Of a stretch of 64,000 nucleotides of DNA, positions 20,767 to 63,422 are shown in pieces (position 1 is the first letter of the stretch; each line of letters opens with the position of its first letter). A program made the position numbers and the translations under genes. Under the pieces are notes generated by a model. It saw nothing but the letters and a program-made list of their open reading frames with translations, searched no databases and was not told the DNA's origin. The DNA comes from a virus, in IMG/VR virus record IMGVR_UViG_3300020391_000004, positions 1 to 64,000 of that record; one strand, written 5' to 3'.

Positions 20767-21642
20767 ATGTGTATGTCAAAAAAACTTGTTATGCCTTTTG
20801 TAGAAACTATGATAACTTATGCTTGTAATTTAAGTTGTACAGGTTGTTCAAATTATAGCGATTACAATATGAAGGGCAGCGTTCCATGGCGACAGGGTAA
20901 GGCATGGATAGAACAATGGCTAGCAAGATTAGATATATTAGACTTTGGTATAATGGGAGGCGAACCAACACTAAATCCAGAATGCGAACATTGGATATAT
21001 GGTATAAGATCTCTATTACCAAATAGTCAAATAAGATTTACTACTAATGGTGCAAATTTTATTAAACGTCCTGATGTATTAGACTGGTGTGTTGATGTTG
21101 GTAATAGTGTATTTAAATTTACTATACATGAAGATAAGCCTTATGCAAAAAAAGCAATAGATTATGTGTTTAGTAAGTATGAATGGAAACCTATTACTGA
21201 ACATGGAATAAATCGCTGGGTGGGCCCAAACAATACTCGCTTTCAGATTAATTCACCATTACAATTTTTTAAAACTTATAGAGGCAATTTTGGAGATATA
21301 CACCCACATCATAATAATCCTAAAGAAGCATTTGACATGTGTATTCAACAAACCTGTCCATTATTATATGAATCTAAAATATATAAGTGTAGTAGTATTG
21401 CATTGTTAAATAAAGTACTACATGATTGGCGACAACCTATTACAGAACATTGGAAACCTTATACTGACTATAAAGGTATATCACCTGAAAGTAGCACACA
21501 AGATATAAAAATGTTTATAAAAAACTTTGGAAAACCACATAAAATTTGTACAATGTGTCCTACAAAAAAAGATAAGGATAGTATTATAGATCATAGATCT
21601 AATGTCATATCTAAAAAACAATGGATAAAAATAAATGCTTAA
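20767..21642 (+). CDS. Radical SAM protein with C-terminal Cys cluster
   Basis: 291 residues. The N-terminal CNLSCTGCSNYSD is the CxxxCxxC [4Fe-4S] motif, followed by GGEP (MGGEPTLN), the SAM-binding motif. A C-terminal cysteine group (CIQQTC, KCSS, KICTMCPTKK) suggests auxiliary Fe-S clusters as in SPASM-type enzymes. It overlaps the next gene by 8 nt, so the two probably act together. The substrate is unknown; peptide or nucleic-acid modification is possible. Confidence 0.8.
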   Translation: MCMSKKLVMPFVETMITYACNLSCTGCSNYSDYNMKGSVPWRQGKAWIEQWLARLDILDFGIMGGEPTLNPECEHWIYGIRSLLPNSQIRFTTNGANFIKRPDVLDWCVDVGNSVFKFTIHEDKPYAKKAIDYVFSKYEWKPITEHGINRWVGPNNTRFQINSPLQFFKTYRGNFGDIHPHHNNPKEAFDMCIQQTCPLLYESKIYKCSSIALLNKVLHDWRQPITEHWKPYTDYKGISPESSTQDIKMFIKNFGKPHKICTMCPTKKDKDSIIDHRSNVISKKQWIKINA

Positions 21643-23533
21643 TCTATACCTAGTGCAAACTACAGACAAGTATGGACCTAATGCTTTCCTACCACTAGCA
21701 ATTAGTTATCAGTGGATGTATGCACAGGCTGATGACCAAGTTAAACAGAACTATCATGTTGAAGATGTTCTTATAGAAAAAACTCCCCCTAAAGAATATG
21801 TAAAGAATATGCCAGTTGAACCACACATAGTTGCAATGAGTAGTTATGTTTGGAATTGGGAATATAACAAAGCACTTGCAACCGAAATAAAACGTGTTTA
21901 TCCTGATTGTGAAATTGTAGTAGGGGGACCTAATGTTGATAAAAGAAATAAAAAGTTTTATACGGACTTTCCTATGTTTGATATTGCAGTCATGGGAGAG
22001 GGAGAGCAGGCATTCAGACAGATATTGAAACAAAGATTAGGAAATAGAAACTATAACGGAATTCCTAGTGTATTCCCAAAAGGTGGCGATATATGCAACT
22101 TACCAGAACGTTTTAGAGATTTAGAGGCTATACCTAGTCCTATACTAAACGGATTTTATGACTGGGTAATAGAAAAAGTAGAATCAAAACTAGGTCCACA
22201 GATGTGGCAAGTCACATATGAAACACTAAGAGGGTGTCCATATCAGTGTACATTTTGTGATATAGGTGATTTATATTGGAATAAAATTAGTAAGTTTGAT
22301 ATGCCACGTATTGAAGCAGAAATAGATTGGATGGCAGAACACAAAATTGAATATGTTGGTGTATGCGATAGTAATTGGGGAATGTTAAAACGTGATTTAG
22401 ATATAACTGCTTATGTAATAAAAAAGAAAAAAGAAACAGGATACCCAAAGTTCTGGGACGTAACATGGGCAAAAGCAAATAGCGAAAATATTTACAAAAT
22501 TGCTAAAATGGATAAAGAAGCAGGAACAAGGTTATTTAAAGGTGTGACGTTTGCTATGCAAAGTTTAAATTTATCTACCCAACAAGCGAGTAAACGTATA
22601 AATTTAAAAAGCAATGAAGCACTAGAATACATGACAAAGTATGAGGAAGAAAATATACCTACATACAGTGAACTAATATGGCCTATGCCAGAAGAAACAT
22701 ATGATACATTAAAAGAAGGCATACAAAAATTAGTGGACTTAGGACAAAAGAGTTTTCTAATGGTACATCCTCTTGTATTAACTTTTAATGCTACTATGGG
22801 ACAAAAACATTATATTGAGGAATATGGGCTTAAATGGAAAGAAGTTCCATTAGATACATACTACCTTAGTGTTGAAGATTTAGAAAACTATATTGTGGAA
22901 AAAACTATGGGAGTATATGCCACTAACACTGCAGATGAAGTACTTACAATGAGGGGTAACTTATTTTCCTATCTTTTTATTACTATGTATTATTATGGTT
23001 GGGCTCATTACTTAATGGAATATATGTACAACAAACATAATATAAGACATATAGATTTTATTGAGAGTATGCTGAATTATTTTTTTACAAAAAATTGCCT
23101 AATAGGCAGTGAGATTAGACAAACAGAAAAACATATGCACGATGTATTTTATGGAGATAGTTTTTGGGGCAGGCAAGTATTAGAAAATGATATATATTGG
23201 GAATATAAAGGTGCCAGTAGTGTTGTATTTCATCAAAATAGAAATAAATTAAAATATGAACTTATAGATTTTGTATATAGTCATTATGAAATAGACGTAA
23301 GTGATGTAGTAGAATTTAATATACATGTGTGTAAAGATCCTAATACTAAATATCCTTTCAATATAAAAATTAACAAAGATACAAGCACATATTGTTTAAA
23401 CAGTGATGTTACAAATTTGAAAGTAGATCATTGGGATAAAGAAGAACTTGATGAAAGAAAATTTTATCACGTCAGCTATCATTGGCAACGTAAAAATCAT
23501 TATTGGAAGTGTACTACTAGTGCTTTAAATTAG
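21635..23533 (+). CDS. B12-binding-type radical SAM protein
   Basis: 632 residues. An N-terminal region (1-160) with PHIVAMSSYVWN, CEIVVGGPN and DIAVMGEGEQAF has the B12-binding/Rossmann arrangement seen before radical SAM domains. CPYQCTFCDIG (around 195) is the CxxxCxxC motif. A long C-terminal half resembles the extended region of marine phage radical SAM proteins. The usual DxHxxG cobalamin motif is not clear, so B12 use is uncertain. It is coupled to the 20767 gene. Confidence 0.75.
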   Translation: MLNLYLVQTTDKYGPNAFLPLAISYQWMYAQADDQVKQNYHVEDVLIEKTPPKEYVKNMPVEPHIVAMSSYVWNWEYNKALATEIKRVYPDCEIVVGGPNVDKRNKKFYTDFPMFDIAVMGEGEQAFRQILKQRLGNRNYNGIPSVFPKGGDICNLPERFRDLEAIPSPILNGFYDWVIEKVESKLGPQMWQVTYETLRGCPYQCTFCDIGDLYWNKISKFDMPRIEAEIDWMAEHKIEYVGVCDSNWGMLKRDLDITAYVIKKKKETGYPKFWDVTWAKANSENIYKIAKMDKEAGTRLFKGVTFAMQSLNLSTQQASKRINLKSNEALEYMTKYEEENIPTYSELIWPMPEETYDTLKEGIQKLVDLGQKSFLMVHPLVLTFNATMGQKHYIEEYGLKWKEVPLDTYYLSVEDLENYIVEKTMGVYATNTADEVLTMRGNLFSYLFITMYYYGWAHYLMEYMYNKHNIRHIDFIESMLNYFFTKNCLIGSEIRQTEKHMHDVFYGDSFWGRQVLENDIYWEYKGASSVVFHQNRNKLKYELIDFVYSHYEIDVSDVVEFNIHVCKDPNTKYPFNIKINKDTSTYCLNSDVTNLKVDHWDKEELDERKFYHVSYHWQRKNHYWKCTTSALN

Positions 23534-24164
23534 TAAAAACTGTCATTCCTATTTTATGATCGTGTTCGTTACTAGCACAATGTAATTGTTTACGATCAAA
23601 TACTATAATATCACCTGGTGTCCATGGCACAACCTTATCAACCATTAGTCCATGTAAATTATCATAAGGAATATGAGTAAGATATAGACTGTATAAAACA
23701 GTATCAAATGGTCTGTTTGTATAACCTACGATATTACTGTAATTAGTGATACGTTGATCTTTTGTTGTAATTTGTTTTGTGTTATCTTTTACATGACTAT
23801 ACGGATCTTCACTACGTACAAATTTAGCCGCATCATAATCCCAATAGTTATTAAAAAATACAGTGCTACCATGTTCACACTTTAATGGTACAATTATACC
23901 TTTATTAACATATGGATTATTGTATCCGCTATCAACATGTATTTGAAAACTAATTGTGCTTTCATTGAATATTACTTCTTCAACTATACTATCATTATCT
24001 ATTAAAGGCTCAATTACTTCCTGAGGCCATTTATCGATATCCCACCTAGGGTGTTTACTACGCACTGTAGTTCTAGTATCAGTTCGTTCGTCATCTAAAT
24101 AATGATATTCTAATAATTTGTTAAGTTGTTTATCGTTTATTACATCCTTGTGTACTGTAATCAT
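23517..24164 (-). CDS. 2-oxoglutarate/Fe(II) oxygenase
   Basis: 215 residues. IHVDSGYNN gives the HxD pair, and the distal His lies in LHCASNEHDHKIGMTVF; both fit the double-stranded beta-helix 2OG oxygenase fold. It would hydroxylate a protein, nucleic acid or small molecule. Its ATG overlaps the TGA of the frame-shifted extension of the 24466 gene (ATGA), and it is convergent with the radical SAM pair. Confidence 0.65.
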   Translation of the reverse strand: MITVHKDVINDKQLNKLLEYHYLDDERTDTRTTVRSKHPRWDIDKWPQEVIEPLIDNDSIVEEVIFNESTISFQIHVDSGYNNPYVNKGIIVPLKCEHGSTVFFNNYWDYDAAKFVRSEDPYSHVKDNTKQITTKDQRITNYSNIVGYTNRPFDTVLYSLYLTHIPYDNLHGLMVDKVVPWTPGDIIVFDRKQLHCASNEHDHKIGMTVFTNLKH

Positions 24165-24471
24165 AGTCTCGTTTTTACTTCTTCTTGTTCTTGTTCAGTT
24201 AGTTCCTCTAATTCCATATGACCTTGTCTTACTAACCAAGTCAAATGTTTTACGTAATCATCATTTAAGTAAGTATCAGTAGTCTCTTTATCTAACTGCA
24301 TCCAATTTGTACCTGTATAACGATAAAGTTTATTTGGTAGTGCATCAACTCTTACAAATAGATCACCTTTGTCAGGTTGCTTTGGAAATATAGTTCCAAA
24401 ATCTGCTTGGGCCGCCTTGTCTAAATCAAGATCCGCTACAACGGCTAGTTTTGGAGTAGGGATCGTTAATC
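24161..24471 (-). CDS. -1 frameshift extension of the 24466-26232 protein
   Basis: This frame is open from inside the last codons of the 588-residue protein to a TGA at 24161 but has no credible start: the first ATG comes about 50 codons in. After a -1 slip at the A7 run it adds 103 residues, beginning R-L-T-I-P-T-P-K-L-A-V-V-A and passing LYRYTGTNWMQLDK and LVRQGHMELEEL. The composition is coding-like. The stop overlaps the ATG of the 2OG gene, as in a normal gene junction. The predicted fused product is 690 residues. Confidence 0.65.
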
Positions 24472-26232
24472 TTTTTTTGGTTCTGTAGTAGATTCTTCAG
24501 GTGTTGCCTGTGCTATAAGATCATCTGCAAACTCATCTTTTTCGACTAATTGATATTTTTCAGCCATTTTAATAACGACTGCATCACGTCTTTCAATCTC
24601 TGCTTCTTGTTCTGCAATTTTTTTAAGCAATTCTTCTTCTCTTGTTTTGAGACTTTCAGCACCTAACTCTATTTCGTCAAGTGTTGCTTTATATGCATCA
24701 CGTTCTGCTTCAGTTTCTACAACCTTATCTACTAAACCATCACCTATGCCTTTAAGTTCCTTAATTTCTGCTTCTAATTGTTCTATTGTTTTTATAAGAG
24801 CATCACGTTCTGCTTCTAATGCTCGATACTTTTTAGGATCTATATTTGCAAGATTACCATCTAATAGTTTTTCTATCTCTGCTAATACATCATTATGTTT
24901 TTTTAGTTCCATTTCTAGTTCCTCTACTCTTGGATCACTGACCCTTACTATTTGTTCTTTTATTACAGGTTTATTCTTTTGCCTTTCCTCTCTCCACCAA
25001 CCAATTGTCATTGTACCTGCTAGTACTAGACACACTGCTAGTGGATCAAAAACTGCTACAATTATAATTATGACCCAACGCACTGCATCTTCTAATAAAC
25101 TACGGTCTGCGTCTCCATAAATTAATTCTGCAATATATTTTACAGGTCCTACTTCTGCTTCAAACTGTCTATACTTTTTTTCAAACTGAAACTTTGCATC
25201 TCTTAATTTATCTTTTTGAGGTTGTATAGTGGCAATTTTATTCTCAAGTTCAATTATTTTTTGTTCTACTTCTTTACTACCTGTGCCCGCGTCAGATGTA
25301 TGCTTTTGTATATTTTTATTTGCTAGGTCTATAGTAGGTTGTATACTTTTACGTATTTCACTTACACGATTTTCTACGTCTGCAATTTGTTTTGCTAACT
25401 TATTATTAATTTTTGTTATTTCACGTTGTACTCTACTAGCAACACCTATTTCATTCTTTTTTGCTTGTGCTATTTGATCATTTAGTTTCTTACGTTCTGT
25501 TGCTTGTTCTTTACGAAGCTCTTTACCTTTAGCTACATTATCTACATCAGCAGTAAATACTCCGCCTTTTGTAGTACCTTGTTTTAAGTATGCTTCTACG
25601 TCTTTGTCTAATACTGCTAGACGTTTATTTGCTTGTACTATATCTGCTTTTGTACGATTCTGTGCATCTTTTAAACGTTTTTCTTGTTGTGCAATTTCTT
25701 TATCGGCTTGTGCTTGATACATAGGTATCTTTGCATTTTGTGCTACAATTTGTGGTTCTATACTTTTACGTGCATTATCTATTCTATCTTGTTCCAGTTT
25801 TATAAGATTATCAACTCTGACGTTTTGACCACCTTTGTTTAATCGTTCTATATCTTCTGTCCAACGATTAATTTTACTATCTATGGTAACAAGTTTTTCA
25901 TCAATAACTTCCATTTGTGCAAGTTGTTCGCCACCTATTGCACTTTGTTCAATATGACTTTTACTTAGAAATCCAAATACACCCATGCTCGTAATAAACA
26001 TTAATACAATTACTGCACTAGTCAAATAATATTTTATAGCACTAGGTGCCCTTTTCCAATTTTGATGTAACCACACTGTGGCTAAGAGTTTACCTACTTC
26101 TAGCACACTACCCATTAATACAATAGGCAAAAAAGCCGCGGCAAATATTGCAGTAAGACCTACTATACTGTAATAGGCTGCAATTACACTTATACTTAAA
26201 GCCACAATTAATGTAAGGATTCCTAAAAACAT
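24466..26232 (-). CDS. Membrane protein with long coiled coil; -1 frameshift product
   Basis: 588 residues in the zero frame. Three N-terminal membrane segments (about 1-25, 28-50, 70-92) precede a long coiled coil (about 100-360). Another membrane segment (AVRWVIIIIVAVFDPLAVCLVL) and a second coiled coil to the C-terminus follow. The product may form a host-membrane scaffold or an anti-superinfection protein; no family name is offered. An early promoter gives a nearly leaderless start. The C-terminus ends EPKKD-stop just after an A7 slippery run. Confidence 0.7.
   Translation of the reverse strand: MFLGILTLIVALSISVIAAYYSIVGLTAIFAAAFLPIVLMGSVLEVGKLLATVWLHQNWKRAPSAIKYYLTSAVIVLMFITSMGVFGFLSKSHIEQSAIGGEQLAQMEVIDEKLVTIDSKINRWTEDIERLNKGGQNVRVDNLIKLEQDRIDNARKSIEPQIVAQNAKIPMYQAQADKEIAQQEKRLKDAQNRTKADIVQANKRLAVLDKDVEAYLKQGTTKGGVFTADVDNVAKGKELRKEQATERKKLNDQIAQAKKNEIGVASRVQREITKINNKLAKQIADVENRVSEIRKSIQPTIDLANKNIQKHTSDAGTGSKEVEQKIIELENKIATIQPQKDKLRDAKFQFEKKYRQFEAEVGPVKYIAELIYGDADRSLLEDAVRWVIIIIVAVFDPLAVCLVLAGTMTIGWWREERQKNKPVIKEQIVRVSDPRVEELEMELKKHNDVLAEIEKLLDGNLANIDPKKYRALEAERDALIKTIEQLEAEIKELKGIGDGLVDKVVETEAERDAYKATLDEIELGAESLKTREEELLKKIAEQEAEIERRDAVVIKMAEKYQLVEKDEFADDLIAQATPEESTTEPKKD
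24472..24478 (-). promoter_or_regulatory. Slippery heptamer A AAA AAA G
   Basis: Seven A in the frame CCA AAA AAA GAT TAA. A -1 slip puts the ribosome in the open downstream frame and skips the TAA two codons on. The position, frame and heptamer all fit programmed -1 frameshifting of the dnaX type. A downstream pseudoknot has not been assessed. Confidence 0.65.
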
Positions 26233-35612: not shown

Positions 35613-36091
35613 CTTGATTGCACTGCCTCTTTATATTCTTTAGTCCAATTTTTATAGTATTTTTTTGAATCAAGATATTCTCTTGCTTCTTCTAATTTAC
35701 TTCTAGATTGTATTAATAATAGACAACACTTTCCAAAGTTTAGTTTAAATCCGTCTACTTCTTCTAAATCATCTGGATGATCTTCTAATACCACTATATC
35801 ATCTTTCCCCCAAGTAGACAATGCTTTATCAAGCATACTAGATAACTGATAAGGTGTTATATTATCAGACGGAAATGCAAATATAATAACATCATTTTTA
35901 ATTAAGTCAAACTCTTCTGTCAATAATGCACCATATGCATCTACCCAACTTTTAAATTCTTTTACTTTTACTTTGTCATCCATCCATGCTTTTTTTGCAT
36001 AAGGACAAGCAGGTAAGTTGTTAAAAGTTGAACTAGGAATACTTAAAGTTTTTTGTACCCAAACTGTTAAATTGTAATAAAGATCATTCAT
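35609..36091 (-). CDS. Hypothetical protein of the amidinotransferase operon
   Basis: 160 residues. The N-terminal LPACPYAKKAWMDD resembles the CPFA-type motif of DUF1415-like proteins, but this is weak. The rest is alpha/beta with VIIFAFPSDN and CCLLLIQSRSK. It overlaps the radical SAM gene by 8 nt. Function unknown. Confidence 0.45.
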   Translation of the reverse strand: MNDLYYNLTVWVQKTLSIPSSTFNNLPACPYAKKAWMDDKVKVKEFKSWVDAYGALLTEEFDLIKNDVIIFAFPSDNITPYQLSSMLDKALSTWGKDDIVVLEDHPDDLEEVDGFKLNFGKCCLLLIQSRSKLEEAREYLDSKKYYKNWTKEYKEAVQSR

Positions 36092-37262
36092 GTAAATTAT
36101 TTACCATGCCCCAATAAGGTTCTAAAAGTTTATATGTGTTTGGAAATGCTTTACTGTAATCTTGATTACGAAATATATCTTGTCGCTTTGTCCAAACTAT
36201 CATACGTTCTAAATCTTTCAAATTAGCAGTCTCAATCATTAGATAATTTTTAATGTCCTCATCTTCTATTGTATGGACTATTTTATCTTTTAAAAAATCA
36301 GGCAAGTTTGTCATTCTGTAATGATTAGGATGATCTACTATGTTAAAATGGACAGTTTTCAACTTACTACGTAACCAATTAGAAGTTTTTTGATAGTCCG
36401 CTATGTTAATTAGGCTAACACATTGACTACCTTGAAAGAACCAGTCTACTTTCGGATAACGATTTGGTAAATCTAAGAACCAATCTATATTTTTTACAGT
36501 TTTATTCCAATCTCCTGGCCAACGTAAATATGTAAACTGTTCCTCAATTCCGTCAATGCTAAAAAAAAGTTCTATACGTTTAAATTGACTCCATAACTTT
36601 TCATAGTGCTTTGCAATCTGTTGTCCATTAGTGCTGTAAAATAATGTTGTATGCTTTGCTCTATCAGCTTCTATAAGTTTTTTTAAAAGCACTGCATGAG
36701 TTTTATCCAGTAATGGTTCTCCACCAAAAAAACTTATTTTTTCCACATTGACTAAATCTTCGAGTTGGTAACTACTACTGTTATGATATGTTTTATCCCT
36801 ACGTTGTATAAAGTCATTATCTTTTGCACCATATACTTCTTCATAGTGTTTACCTTCGGGCCAATATAAACTTGTATCCCACCCTCCGCATGTCCTACAT
36901 GCAAGGTTACATACATTAGTGGTTTTAATTACAAGTTCTCTAGGACCCTTTTCCCAACCAATATTATTAGTACCATATTGATCATTAGTTCTAAGACGTA
37001 AACTATGTATACCAGCATCCTCTTCATCCCAACAACGTTTACATTCGCTAGGACGTTCTCCTTTTAAAAATTTATATCTTAAAGAATTAAGTGCAGGATG
37101 ATTCCATCTATCCTTTTGTGATGTATCGTGATTTACTTGAACTTCAATAGGACCAAAAGCACATGGACTAATCTTATCCCAGGCGGTCTGTCTTGTTGAT
37201 ACAAACGGACTACTGCAAAAATTTTTAGAGGGTGAATCCACTAAATGTGTCTTTTTCAACAT
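36084..37262 (-). CDS. Radical SAM protein with N-terminal twitch-type Cys
   Basis: 392 residues from the ATG at 37262. FCSSPF and CKRCWDEEDAG at the N-terminus form the twitch-type auxiliary cysteines, and CNLACRTCGGWD is the CxxxCxxC cluster motif, with SFFGGEPLLDK as the SAM-binding GGEP. The layout matches the N-terminal-twitch radical SAM family (NF033640-like, from memory). It is the first gene of a string running to the amidinotransferase. The NrdB C-terminus overlaps it by 38 nt. Confidence 0.82.
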   Translation of the reverse strand: MLKKTHLVDSPSKNFCSSPFVSTRQTAWDKISPCAFGPIEVQVNHDTSQKDRWNHPALNSLRYKFLKGERPSECKRCWDEEDAGIHSLRLRTNDQYGTNNIGWEKGPRELVIKTTNVCNLACRTCGGWDTSLYWPEGKHYEEVYGAKDNDFIQRRDKTYHNSSSYQLEDLVNVEKISFFGGEPLLDKTHAVLLKKLIEADRAKHTTLFYSTNGQQIAKHYEKLWSQFKRIELFFSIDGIEEQFTYLRWPGDWNKTVKNIDWFLDLPNRYPKVDWFFQGSQCVSLINIADYQKTSNWLRSKLKTVHFNIVDHPNHYRMTNLPDFLKDKIVHTIEDEDIKNYLMIETANLKDLERMIVWTKRQDIFRNQDYSKAFPNTYKLLEPYWGMVNNLHE

Positions 37263-38346
37263 CCTGTTTTGTACCACCAATTATGTAACTTGAGATTTCT
37301 GTTTCTTGTGGTGCAACCTGTACTTCACCACCTGCAATCCATTTACTAGTCCAAGGTAAAGGATTTGCTTGTGGAACACTATATGGACTTTTTAATCCTA
37401 CTGCATTCATACGTTTGTTTGCAATCCATTCAATATATTGATCTAATAATTGTTTGTTTAATCCTATCATTGAACCATCTTTAAACAAATAGTCCGCCCA
37501 TTGTTTTTCTTGGTCTACTGCATCAACAAACATCTGTATACAATCTTCTCTTGTTTCTTCTGCAATCTTTGCAAAATCTTTATCATCCTTAGGAAGTATT
37601 TTTAATAATTGTTGTGTCGAACCTAAGTGTACATTCTCATCACGAGCAATAAATTTAATAATTTTAGCATTGCCTTCCATCTTTTTAAGTTCTGCGAATG
37701 CCCAACTACATGCAAATGATACATAAAAACGTACACCTTCTAAAATGTTTACACTCATAAGTGTTTTATATAATAATGTTTTCAATTCATACAAATCAAT
37801 TACAATCTTCTTACCATTTACTGTATGTGTGCCTGCTCCTAATAAATTATAATATGCAGACTTTTCAATTAGTTCATCATAGCATAATGTAATACTATCT
37901 GCACAGTCTACAATCTCCTGTACGTCCATCATTTCATCAAATATTTTACTTGGATCACTGTACACGTTACGGATTATATGTGTGTAACTACGGCTATGAA
38001 TTGTTTCACTAAATGTCCATGTTGTAATCCAGTTCTCAAGTTCTGGTAAACTAGTAATAGGATTAAATGCTTCCGCAGGTGCACGACCTTGAACACTATC
38101 TAATAATATTTGTCTTTTTAAATTACTTGTAAACACATGACGTTCATTGTCAGTAAGTTCTTTAAAGTCTTTACTGTCTTTCAATATATCTACTTCCTCA
38201 GGTCTCCAAAAGAATCCTAATTGCTTGTCTGTAAGTTTATCAAAGGCACGATACTTTAGTGTATCATATCTTTGCATTCCTAGTTCTCCATCAAAGAAAC
38301 ACATTTTCTCTGTGTGGTCATGTTTACTTGTGTTTAATACGCTCAT
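37225..38346 (-). CDS. nrdB: Ribonucleotide reductase class Ia small subunit
   Basis: 373 residues from the ATG at 38346 with AAGGAC upstream. The iron-and-tyrosyl region FSETIHSRSYTHIIRN retains the ligand Glu and His and the radical Tyr, and DENVHLGSTQQLL supplies a second Glu and His. RNR makes deoxynucleotides for phage replication. It pairs with NrdA at 39049. The C-terminal residues (VEKDTFSGFTL) would bind NrdA. Confidence 0.93.
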   Translation of the reverse strand: MSVLNTSKHDHTEKMCFFDGELGMQRYDTLKYRAFDKLTDKQLGFFWRPEEVDILKDSKDFKELTDNERHVFTSNLKRQILLDSVQGRAPAEAFNPITSLPELENWITTWTFSETIHSRSYTHIIRNVYSDPSKIFDEMMDVQEIVDCADSITLCYDELIEKSAYYNLLGAGTHTVNGKKIVIDLYELKTLLYKTLMSVNILEGVRFYVSFACSWAFAELKKMEGNAKIIKFIARDENVHLGSTQQLLKILPKDDKDFAKIAEETREDCIQMFVDAVDQEKQWADYLFKDGSMIGLNKQLLDQYIEWIANKRMNAVGLKSPYSVPQANPLPWTSKWIAGGEVQVAPQETEISSYIIGGTKQDVEKDTFSGFTL

Positions 38347-62541: not shown

Positions 62542-63422
62542 TAACACTTCCCACAATTAAACACACAATAGTCTGGCTTACTATCTTGTATTGTAGCATA
62601 AAAATTATGAAAACGCCTAATACAATCTGTAAGACTGTTGTCCTTTATTGTTAATTTATTCTTCCACCATTCACTTTTATACCAAAAAGAATAATTTTTA
62701 GTATAACAACAAGGTGCATAAAATCCATCTGCACTAATGTAATGACTTTTGCCATCAGCACATTCTGGATCTATTTCAAAGTTTTTAATATTACTTGTCA
62801 TATATTTTTGTTGTACTTCGTCTCTAGGACCTATATAATTTTCTTTTGGTCGTAGATAGTCGTCTATCTCATATCTGTCACTCGGATCTAATTTAAAATT
62901 ATCAATACCTAACTTTTTACTTAAACTTTTCGCTTCTTCTATGTCATTCTCATTAAAGGAAAAAGGAATATATTTCCATGTTGTTTCAACTTTACTTTTC
63001 ACACAAATATCTATACCTGTTTTAATACTGTCCCAATCGCCATTTATTCTATACTTTGTAAAATTATCAGGTGTACCATCAATACTAAAGTCTATTTTAT
63101 CATTATCATCTAATATAGAAACAAGTTTTTCCCACCATATTTTATTTTTTCTACTTGCATTTGTAGTAATAGTCACTGATTTGCATAATCCTTTAGATAC
63201 CTCTACTAATGCTAAAAAGTTTTTATGATATATTGGATCTCCTAAGTTTCCACAGAAGTTTATATGATCGACTTTATCATCAATAAAATTTTTAAAATCG
63301 TTTATGTTTAAATCATTAATTGAAAAATTATTTTTTCCAAACTTATCTATAAAAGTTGTTCGTTCGCATCTTGGACATGCCAGTGTGCATCTACTAGTAG
63401 CCTCAACATGTAAGCCTACCAT
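62541..63422 (-). CDS. Radical SAM protein
   Basis: 293 residues. CTLACPRCERTTF is the CxxxCxxC motif, and a GNLGDP-like loop follows where other family members have GGEP. A C-terminal CVFNCGKC group and CCYTK suggest auxiliary clusters (SPASM-like). It is wedged between primase and helicase and overlaps both, an odd place for a radical SAM gene. The substrate is unknown; a nucleotide or nucleic acid change is a position-based guess. Confidence 0.7.
   Translation of the reverse strand: MVGLHVEATSRCTLACPRCERTTFIDKFGKNNFSINDLNINDFKNFIDDKVDHINFCGNLGDPIYHKNFLALVEVSKGLCKSVTITTNASRKNKIWWEKLVSILDDNDKIDFSIDGTPDNFTKYRINGDWDSIKTGIDICVKSKVETTWKYIPFSFNENDIEEAKSLSKKLGIDNFKLDPSDRYEIDDYLRPKENYIGPRDEVQQKYMTSNIKNFEIDPECADGKSHYISADGFYAPCCYTKNYSFWYKSEWWKNKLTIKDNSLTDCIRRFHNFYATIQDSKPDYCVFNCGKC

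Follow-up and report, generated by a model that had tools for sequence, protein, structure and literature searches.

A probable programmed −1 ribosomal frameshift that would extend a phage membrane protein by a C-terminal domain

Programmed −1 ribosomal frameshifting in a phage gene very probably yields two proteins, of 588 and 690 amino acids, as a first-pass annotation of the same DNA had proposed. The reading is supported by a phased heptamer, a covarying stem, a selected −1 frame and fused relatives. Comparison among relatives shows a constant heptamer phase, a stem, an open and selected −1 frame with no conserved start, and relatives in which the product is fused; slippage in the cell, and its rate, we infer. 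The frameshift mechanism is classical and the membrane-protein gene family is a new user of it; no prior description of this case was found in the open-licence literature.

The frameshift site and the downstream RNA structure

The window, which is the whole 64 kb stretch analysed, belongs to a virus record of 131,614 bases; among named phage isolates, Pelagibacter phage Mosig is its best relative. The RNR large subunit, DNA polymerase and endolysin genes are found near the frameshift gene. The features at the site are the following:

24466–26232, minus strand: 0-frame open reading frame (ORF) from ATG (26232) to TAA, 588 amino acids, ending CCA AAA AAA GAT TAA
24472–24478, minus strand: slippery heptamer A AAA AAA within CCA AAA AAA GAT, in 0-frame phase; phase kept in 13 distinct sequences
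24465–24471, minus strand: 7-nt spacer between heptamer and stem, containing the 0-frame TAA (24468–24466)
24430–24464, minus strand: stem-loop S1, 5′ arm 24464–24456 GATCCCTAC, 3′ arm 24439–24430 GTAGCGGATC
24410–24446, minus strand: possible pseudoknot stem S2 (tentative), loop 24446–24441 with 24415–24410, core GCCG / CGGC
24161–24472, minus strand: −1 frame extension, 103 codons and TGA (24163–24161)
23517–24164, minus strand: next gene, 215 amino acids, ATG at 24164, outside the frameshift product

The 588-residue frame and its ending were confirmed at 26232→24466 on the minus strand. The A7 run, taken by the first-pass annotation as a −1 slippery site, lies at 24478–24472 in 0-frame phase, as A_AAA_AAA followed by G, which is the phase required for tandem −1 slippage. 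The −1 frame is indeed open for 103 codons (24472 to 24161), and its TGA overlaps the ATG of the next gene as ATGA, the coupling described earlier. The fusion amounts to 587 + 103 = 690 residues.

In the proposed mechanism, two lysyl-tRNAs would occupy A_AAA_AAA in CCA AAA AAA GAT while ribosomes would be stalled by a structure 7 nt downstream, a stem-loop or perhaps an H-type pseudoknot. A fraction of these ribosomes would slip one base backwards and translate a further 103 codons, and the remainder would terminate one codon later at the TAA. The two products would share the same membrane and coiled-coil body, ending at 588 amino acids or continuing to 690 with the C-terminal domain, and the frameshift rate would set the ratio of the long form in the membrane scaffold.

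The window holds 97 stop-to-stop ORFs of 100 codons or more, among which the frequency of such sites was counted. In 8 of the 97 the −1 overlap contains an in-phase heptamer of some kind, and in two of these 8 the −1 extension also reaches 60 codons or more. One of the two is the present gene; its counterpart near 63418 (A AAT TTG) runs into what appears to be the following gene. An isolated case might arise by chance; conservation in 13 distinct sequences could not.

A downstream stem-loop with compensatory changes, absent from the first-pass annotation, is present at the site. S1 consists of 9 bp with one bulged C and a loop of 16 nt. A hairpin starts 5–7 nt after the heptamer in the members folded or measured (7 nt in the window), so that S1 falls within the spacing of about 5–9 nt sought for a 3′ structure. 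Covariation was counted on the eight members that align cleanly (alignment A4), where 94% of S1 cells are paired versus 31–49% for slid partners, and four of the nine pairs have changes on both sides. None of 500 shuffles scored as high as S1 in cells paired, double-change counts or covariation score, and RNAalifold recovered the same 9-bp stem unprompted. L004–L006 have longer hairpins with the same placing. The stem in the window has a z of −3.3 for 50 nt, and the 50-nt folding energy clearly beats dinucleotide shuffles in 6 of 11 members; it is no better than shuffles in L003, L021 and L025, which still keep the S1 register. A pseudoknot is tentatively suggested by S2, in which the S1 loop would pair with bases about 14 nt downstream in an H-type arrangement: two of its six pairs have both-side changes and 83% of cells are paired, which is individually weak.

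Two adjoining plus-strand ORFs (20767–23533) occur amid otherwise minus-strand coding in the window, and their end abuts the gene downstream of the frameshift. The first has a PHROGs match to radical SAM proteins; the second has no PHROG match and a CxxxCxxC-like motif. Another radical SAM domain protein (phrog_14086) is encoded at 36084–37280 on the minus strand.

Conservation of the heptamer and of the −1 frame

Nine full-length relatives were obtained by a protein search of viral contigs, and many more by wider searches. The arrangement was found in 13 distinct sequences, namely the window and 12 from viral contigs. The −1 frame is open in all of the first eleven (the window, L001–L006, L020, L021, L023 and L025), as it is in two found later. 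The heptamer is A AAA AAA in the window, L001 and L025, A AAA AAG in L002, L003, L005, L006 and L023, A AAA AAC in L004 and A AAA AAT in L020, while C CCA AAG occurs once among the 13, in L021. L285 (A AAA AAT) and L286 (A AAA AAA) were found after the pattern had been stated and both fit it out of sample. All 13 thus carry an X XXY YYZ heptamer phased with the 0 frame ahead of the stop, which comes 7–19 nt past the heptamer start, within 2 to 5 codons. The first-pass annotation had looked to homologues for conservation of the A7 run and of both frames; both frames are kept, whereas the A7 letters themselves vary around a constant heptamer phase. An exact junction scan of viral contigs allowing A5 to A9 returned no further copy.

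Transcriptional slippage is an improbable alternative, in which RNA polymerase would add an A on the A7 run, so that part of the mRNA would carry A8 and have the extension in frame. The window does have an A run, and such slippage is plausible at the A9 cases of the wider family (L014, L017, L213, L218, L220 and L230). In the window's clade, however, most runs are A6 or A7, L021 has CCCAAAG alone, and the long homopolymer of about 9 or more of a transcriptional slippage site was not found there. The X_XXY_YYZ phase and a stem 5–7 nt downstream instead fit the needs of ribosomal slippage.

Pairwise dN/dS, where computable, was 0.11–0.30 in the extension and 0.11–0.29 in the body, in line with the coding-like content reported earlier for the −1 frame. 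The purifying selection in the extension indicates that the −1 frame is read as protein. These values also bear on the idea that the true frame is one fused ORF, broken in the window by decay of the gene or by an indel that sequencing or assembly introduced into the A7 homopolymer. In favour of this idea are the error-prone nature of homopolymers and the in-frame fusion of many relatives, but both frames are under purifying selection, the same −1 relation recurs in thirteen distinct sequences on many contigs with differing heptamers, and every one of these meets its 0-frame stop within 2 to 5 codons. A sequencing indel was rejected on this conservation, and the explanation as a whole has a negligible probability.

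The −1 ORF could in principle be an independent or translationally coupled gene with its own non-standard start near the 0-frame stop, and the same domain does stand on a separate downstream ORF in L010 and L011. The −1 ORFs examined, including that of the window, for which the lack of a sensible start had been noted, and those of the frameshift clade, have no ATG, GTG or TTG ahead of the domain match. The exception is L020, whose extension has a single internal ATG, 9 codons in; this would favour a separate gene but is not conserved, being ATT in the near relative L285. The sole window candidates near the junction, ACG and ATC, are not common to L004 or L005. An independent gene was rejected by this start-codon scan; it would also leave the heptamer, the stem and the repeated in-frame fusions unexplained, and is very unlikely compared with programmed −1 frameshifting.

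The membrane protein, its extension and fused relatives

The designation as a membrane protein agrees with four hydrophobic helices in the body, at about residues 3–23, 28–53, 68–92 and 382–408. Long charged coiled-coil regions occupy residues 95–375 and 415–575. Charged residues lie between helices 2 and 3 (K60, R61, K67) and after helix 4 (R414, R417, K419, K421). From hydrophobicity and the positive-inside rule we infer, with less confidence, that residues 95–375 may be periplasmic and the C-terminal half with the extension cytoplasmic. The 588-residue body has no PHROGs match and no Pfam match above curated cut-offs. Scattered tape-measure matches and one Rz-like spanin match among relatives were set aside, as they look like generic coiled coil.

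The extension is a compact beta-alpha domain (FGTxFPxxPDKGDLFVRVDxLPNKLYRYTGxxW) followed by a C-terminal helix pair, and is the single copy of this domain in the virus record. AlphaFold2 predicted four strands and two helices for the domain alone, with a pLDDT of about 80–90 over residues 21–103. Its match to the virion structural protein family phrog_11591 covers the C-terminal end only, profile positions 414–466 of 497, and does not amount to full-length membership; those tested of the 410-residue ORFs of L117–L174 are full members of that family. Pfam gave no match to the extension among 44 members. PDB sequence and fold searches returned nothing significant (best Foldseek PDB E 0.43), and no Ig-like match was among the Foldseek PDB matches listed. 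In BFVD, the domain matched A0A6J5LJZ8, a phage protein with the fusion; weak matches spanning 40–50 residues were to phage structural, tail-collar and tail-fibre proteins.

The extra C-terminal domain that the first-pass annotation had assigned to the 690-residue product is borne out by L008 and many other relatives, in which the same domain is fused in frame; the long product is therefore a real protein. In L008, body and domain form one ORF of 679 amino acids without such a heptamer at the junction. AlphaFold2 modelled this protein as helical with a separate C-terminal domain (pLDDT about 92–96 over most of it, overall pTM 0.33). The fused forms show that body and domain make a working protein.

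In the phylogenetic tree the frameshift members group with L008 and L027–L032 in a single supported clade. L008 is nested in the frameshift clade, adjoining L005/L006, and L027–L032 are fused and lie beside it; by position, one fused relative is nested in the frameshift clade, five are beside it and many are more distant. The more distant in-frame fusions include L033, L037–L040, L101–L116 and others. From the nested L008 fusion it seems that a plain fusion can replace the frameshift. L024 falls within the clade as well; its extension has been lost, and no heptamer occurs close to its stop. L010–L013 have the domain on a downstream ORF, and other distant relatives are without it. Among bacterial and archaeal genomes, the family was found on one contig, labelled as a Legionella MAG, and the membrane-protein family is therefore essentially viral.

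The homology of the extension to a virion structural family suggests, with less confidence, that the long form provides a minority of the membrane scaffold with a binding site for virion or tail parts. That this minority would tether virion or tail components to the membrane scaffold is a more doubtful suggestion, put forward tentatively.

Known systems and the wider family

Frameshifted C-terminal extensions are a known phage device (reviewed in PMC5009743). In E. coli, A_AAA_AAG is the most shift-prone heptamer among those tested and stem-loops stimulate the shift (PMC5009743). The site resembles E. coli dnaX in its A-rich tandem lysine heptamer (A_AAA_AAG in dnaX) and simple 3′ stem-loop (PMC5009743). 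The dnaX shift, however, leads to a shorter product at about 1:1, whereas the shift here would lengthen the product by an added domain, in a phage membrane protein, and no Shine-Dalgarno-like stimulator is consistent among the members. The extensions of phage structural proteins, such as T3/T7 gene 10, the Lactobacillus phage A2 capsid and Ig-like extensions, are similar in lying near the gene end and giving a minority product, and in that the C-terminal domain is carried in frame by other proteins (PMC5009743). Unlike in those cases, the body here is neither a capsid nor a tail protein but a coiled-coil protein of the inner membrane; the domain has no Ig match, and the downstream stem is conserved.

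The lambda-type tail assembly chaperone G/G-T, whose frameshift is conserved among long-tailed phages with T4 as the exception (PMC5009743), also has a −1 frameshift near the 3′ end and a longer minority product. In contrast, the present gene encodes a membrane protein without a link to the tail tape-measure locus: it was not found between a major tail protein and a tape measure, and neither the window protein nor the neighbours scanned had a PHROG tail-chaperone or tape-measure match. In phrog_11591, for example the structural protein of Pseudomonas phage PA5oct, the C-terminal part is homologous to the extension, but the N-terminal part bears no relation to the membrane protein, and the whole is a single ORF.

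A frameshift predictor, PRFect, exists (PMC10885494). Standard gene callers will miss the extension in these phages, or call a stray or absent ORF. The compact, conserved signal makes the case directly testable by a reporter, the need of a phage for two versions of one membrane protein could be approached through the natural series of frameshifted, fused and absent forms, and the shared domain ties a widespread, otherwise unannotated membrane protein to components of the virion.

In a second lineage of the family, recoding seems to take place at an A9 run. In L014, L017 and L213 the A9 run is followed by a conserved 0-frame tail of 21 codons, and the segment GYxQNxEQxxSTIWxRI is in the −1 frame with no standard start seen before it; the same segment is in frame in L219, L224 and L276, relatives without the A9 run. 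L218, L230 and L220 resemble this arrangement. Since A9 runs permit transcriptional slippage and assembly error, this lineage is a lead and not a result. In L215, L217, L223, L229 and L272 the A9 run lies about 132–144 nt before the 0-frame stop; there the 0 frame enters GYxQNxEQxxSTIWxRI and the +1 frame keeps TWMExxGxQIxK, with a stop at the same place. This +1 tail is at least as conserved as the 0 frame (mean identity 0.52 versus 0.40).

It is a serious possibility, though one held with some doubt, that the family, one of tailed phages, is a recurrent hot spot of recoding in which evolution tunes the dosage of the tail. It would comprise at least two independent slippage lineages (the heptamer with stem, and the A9 run of L014, L017 and L213), the two-frame tails of the L215 subgroup, and flips between frameshifted, fused, separate and absent forms.

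L081 and L048, each a single sequence, have an A9 run near the 0-frame stop and a plausible −1 continuation, by an indel or by slippage.
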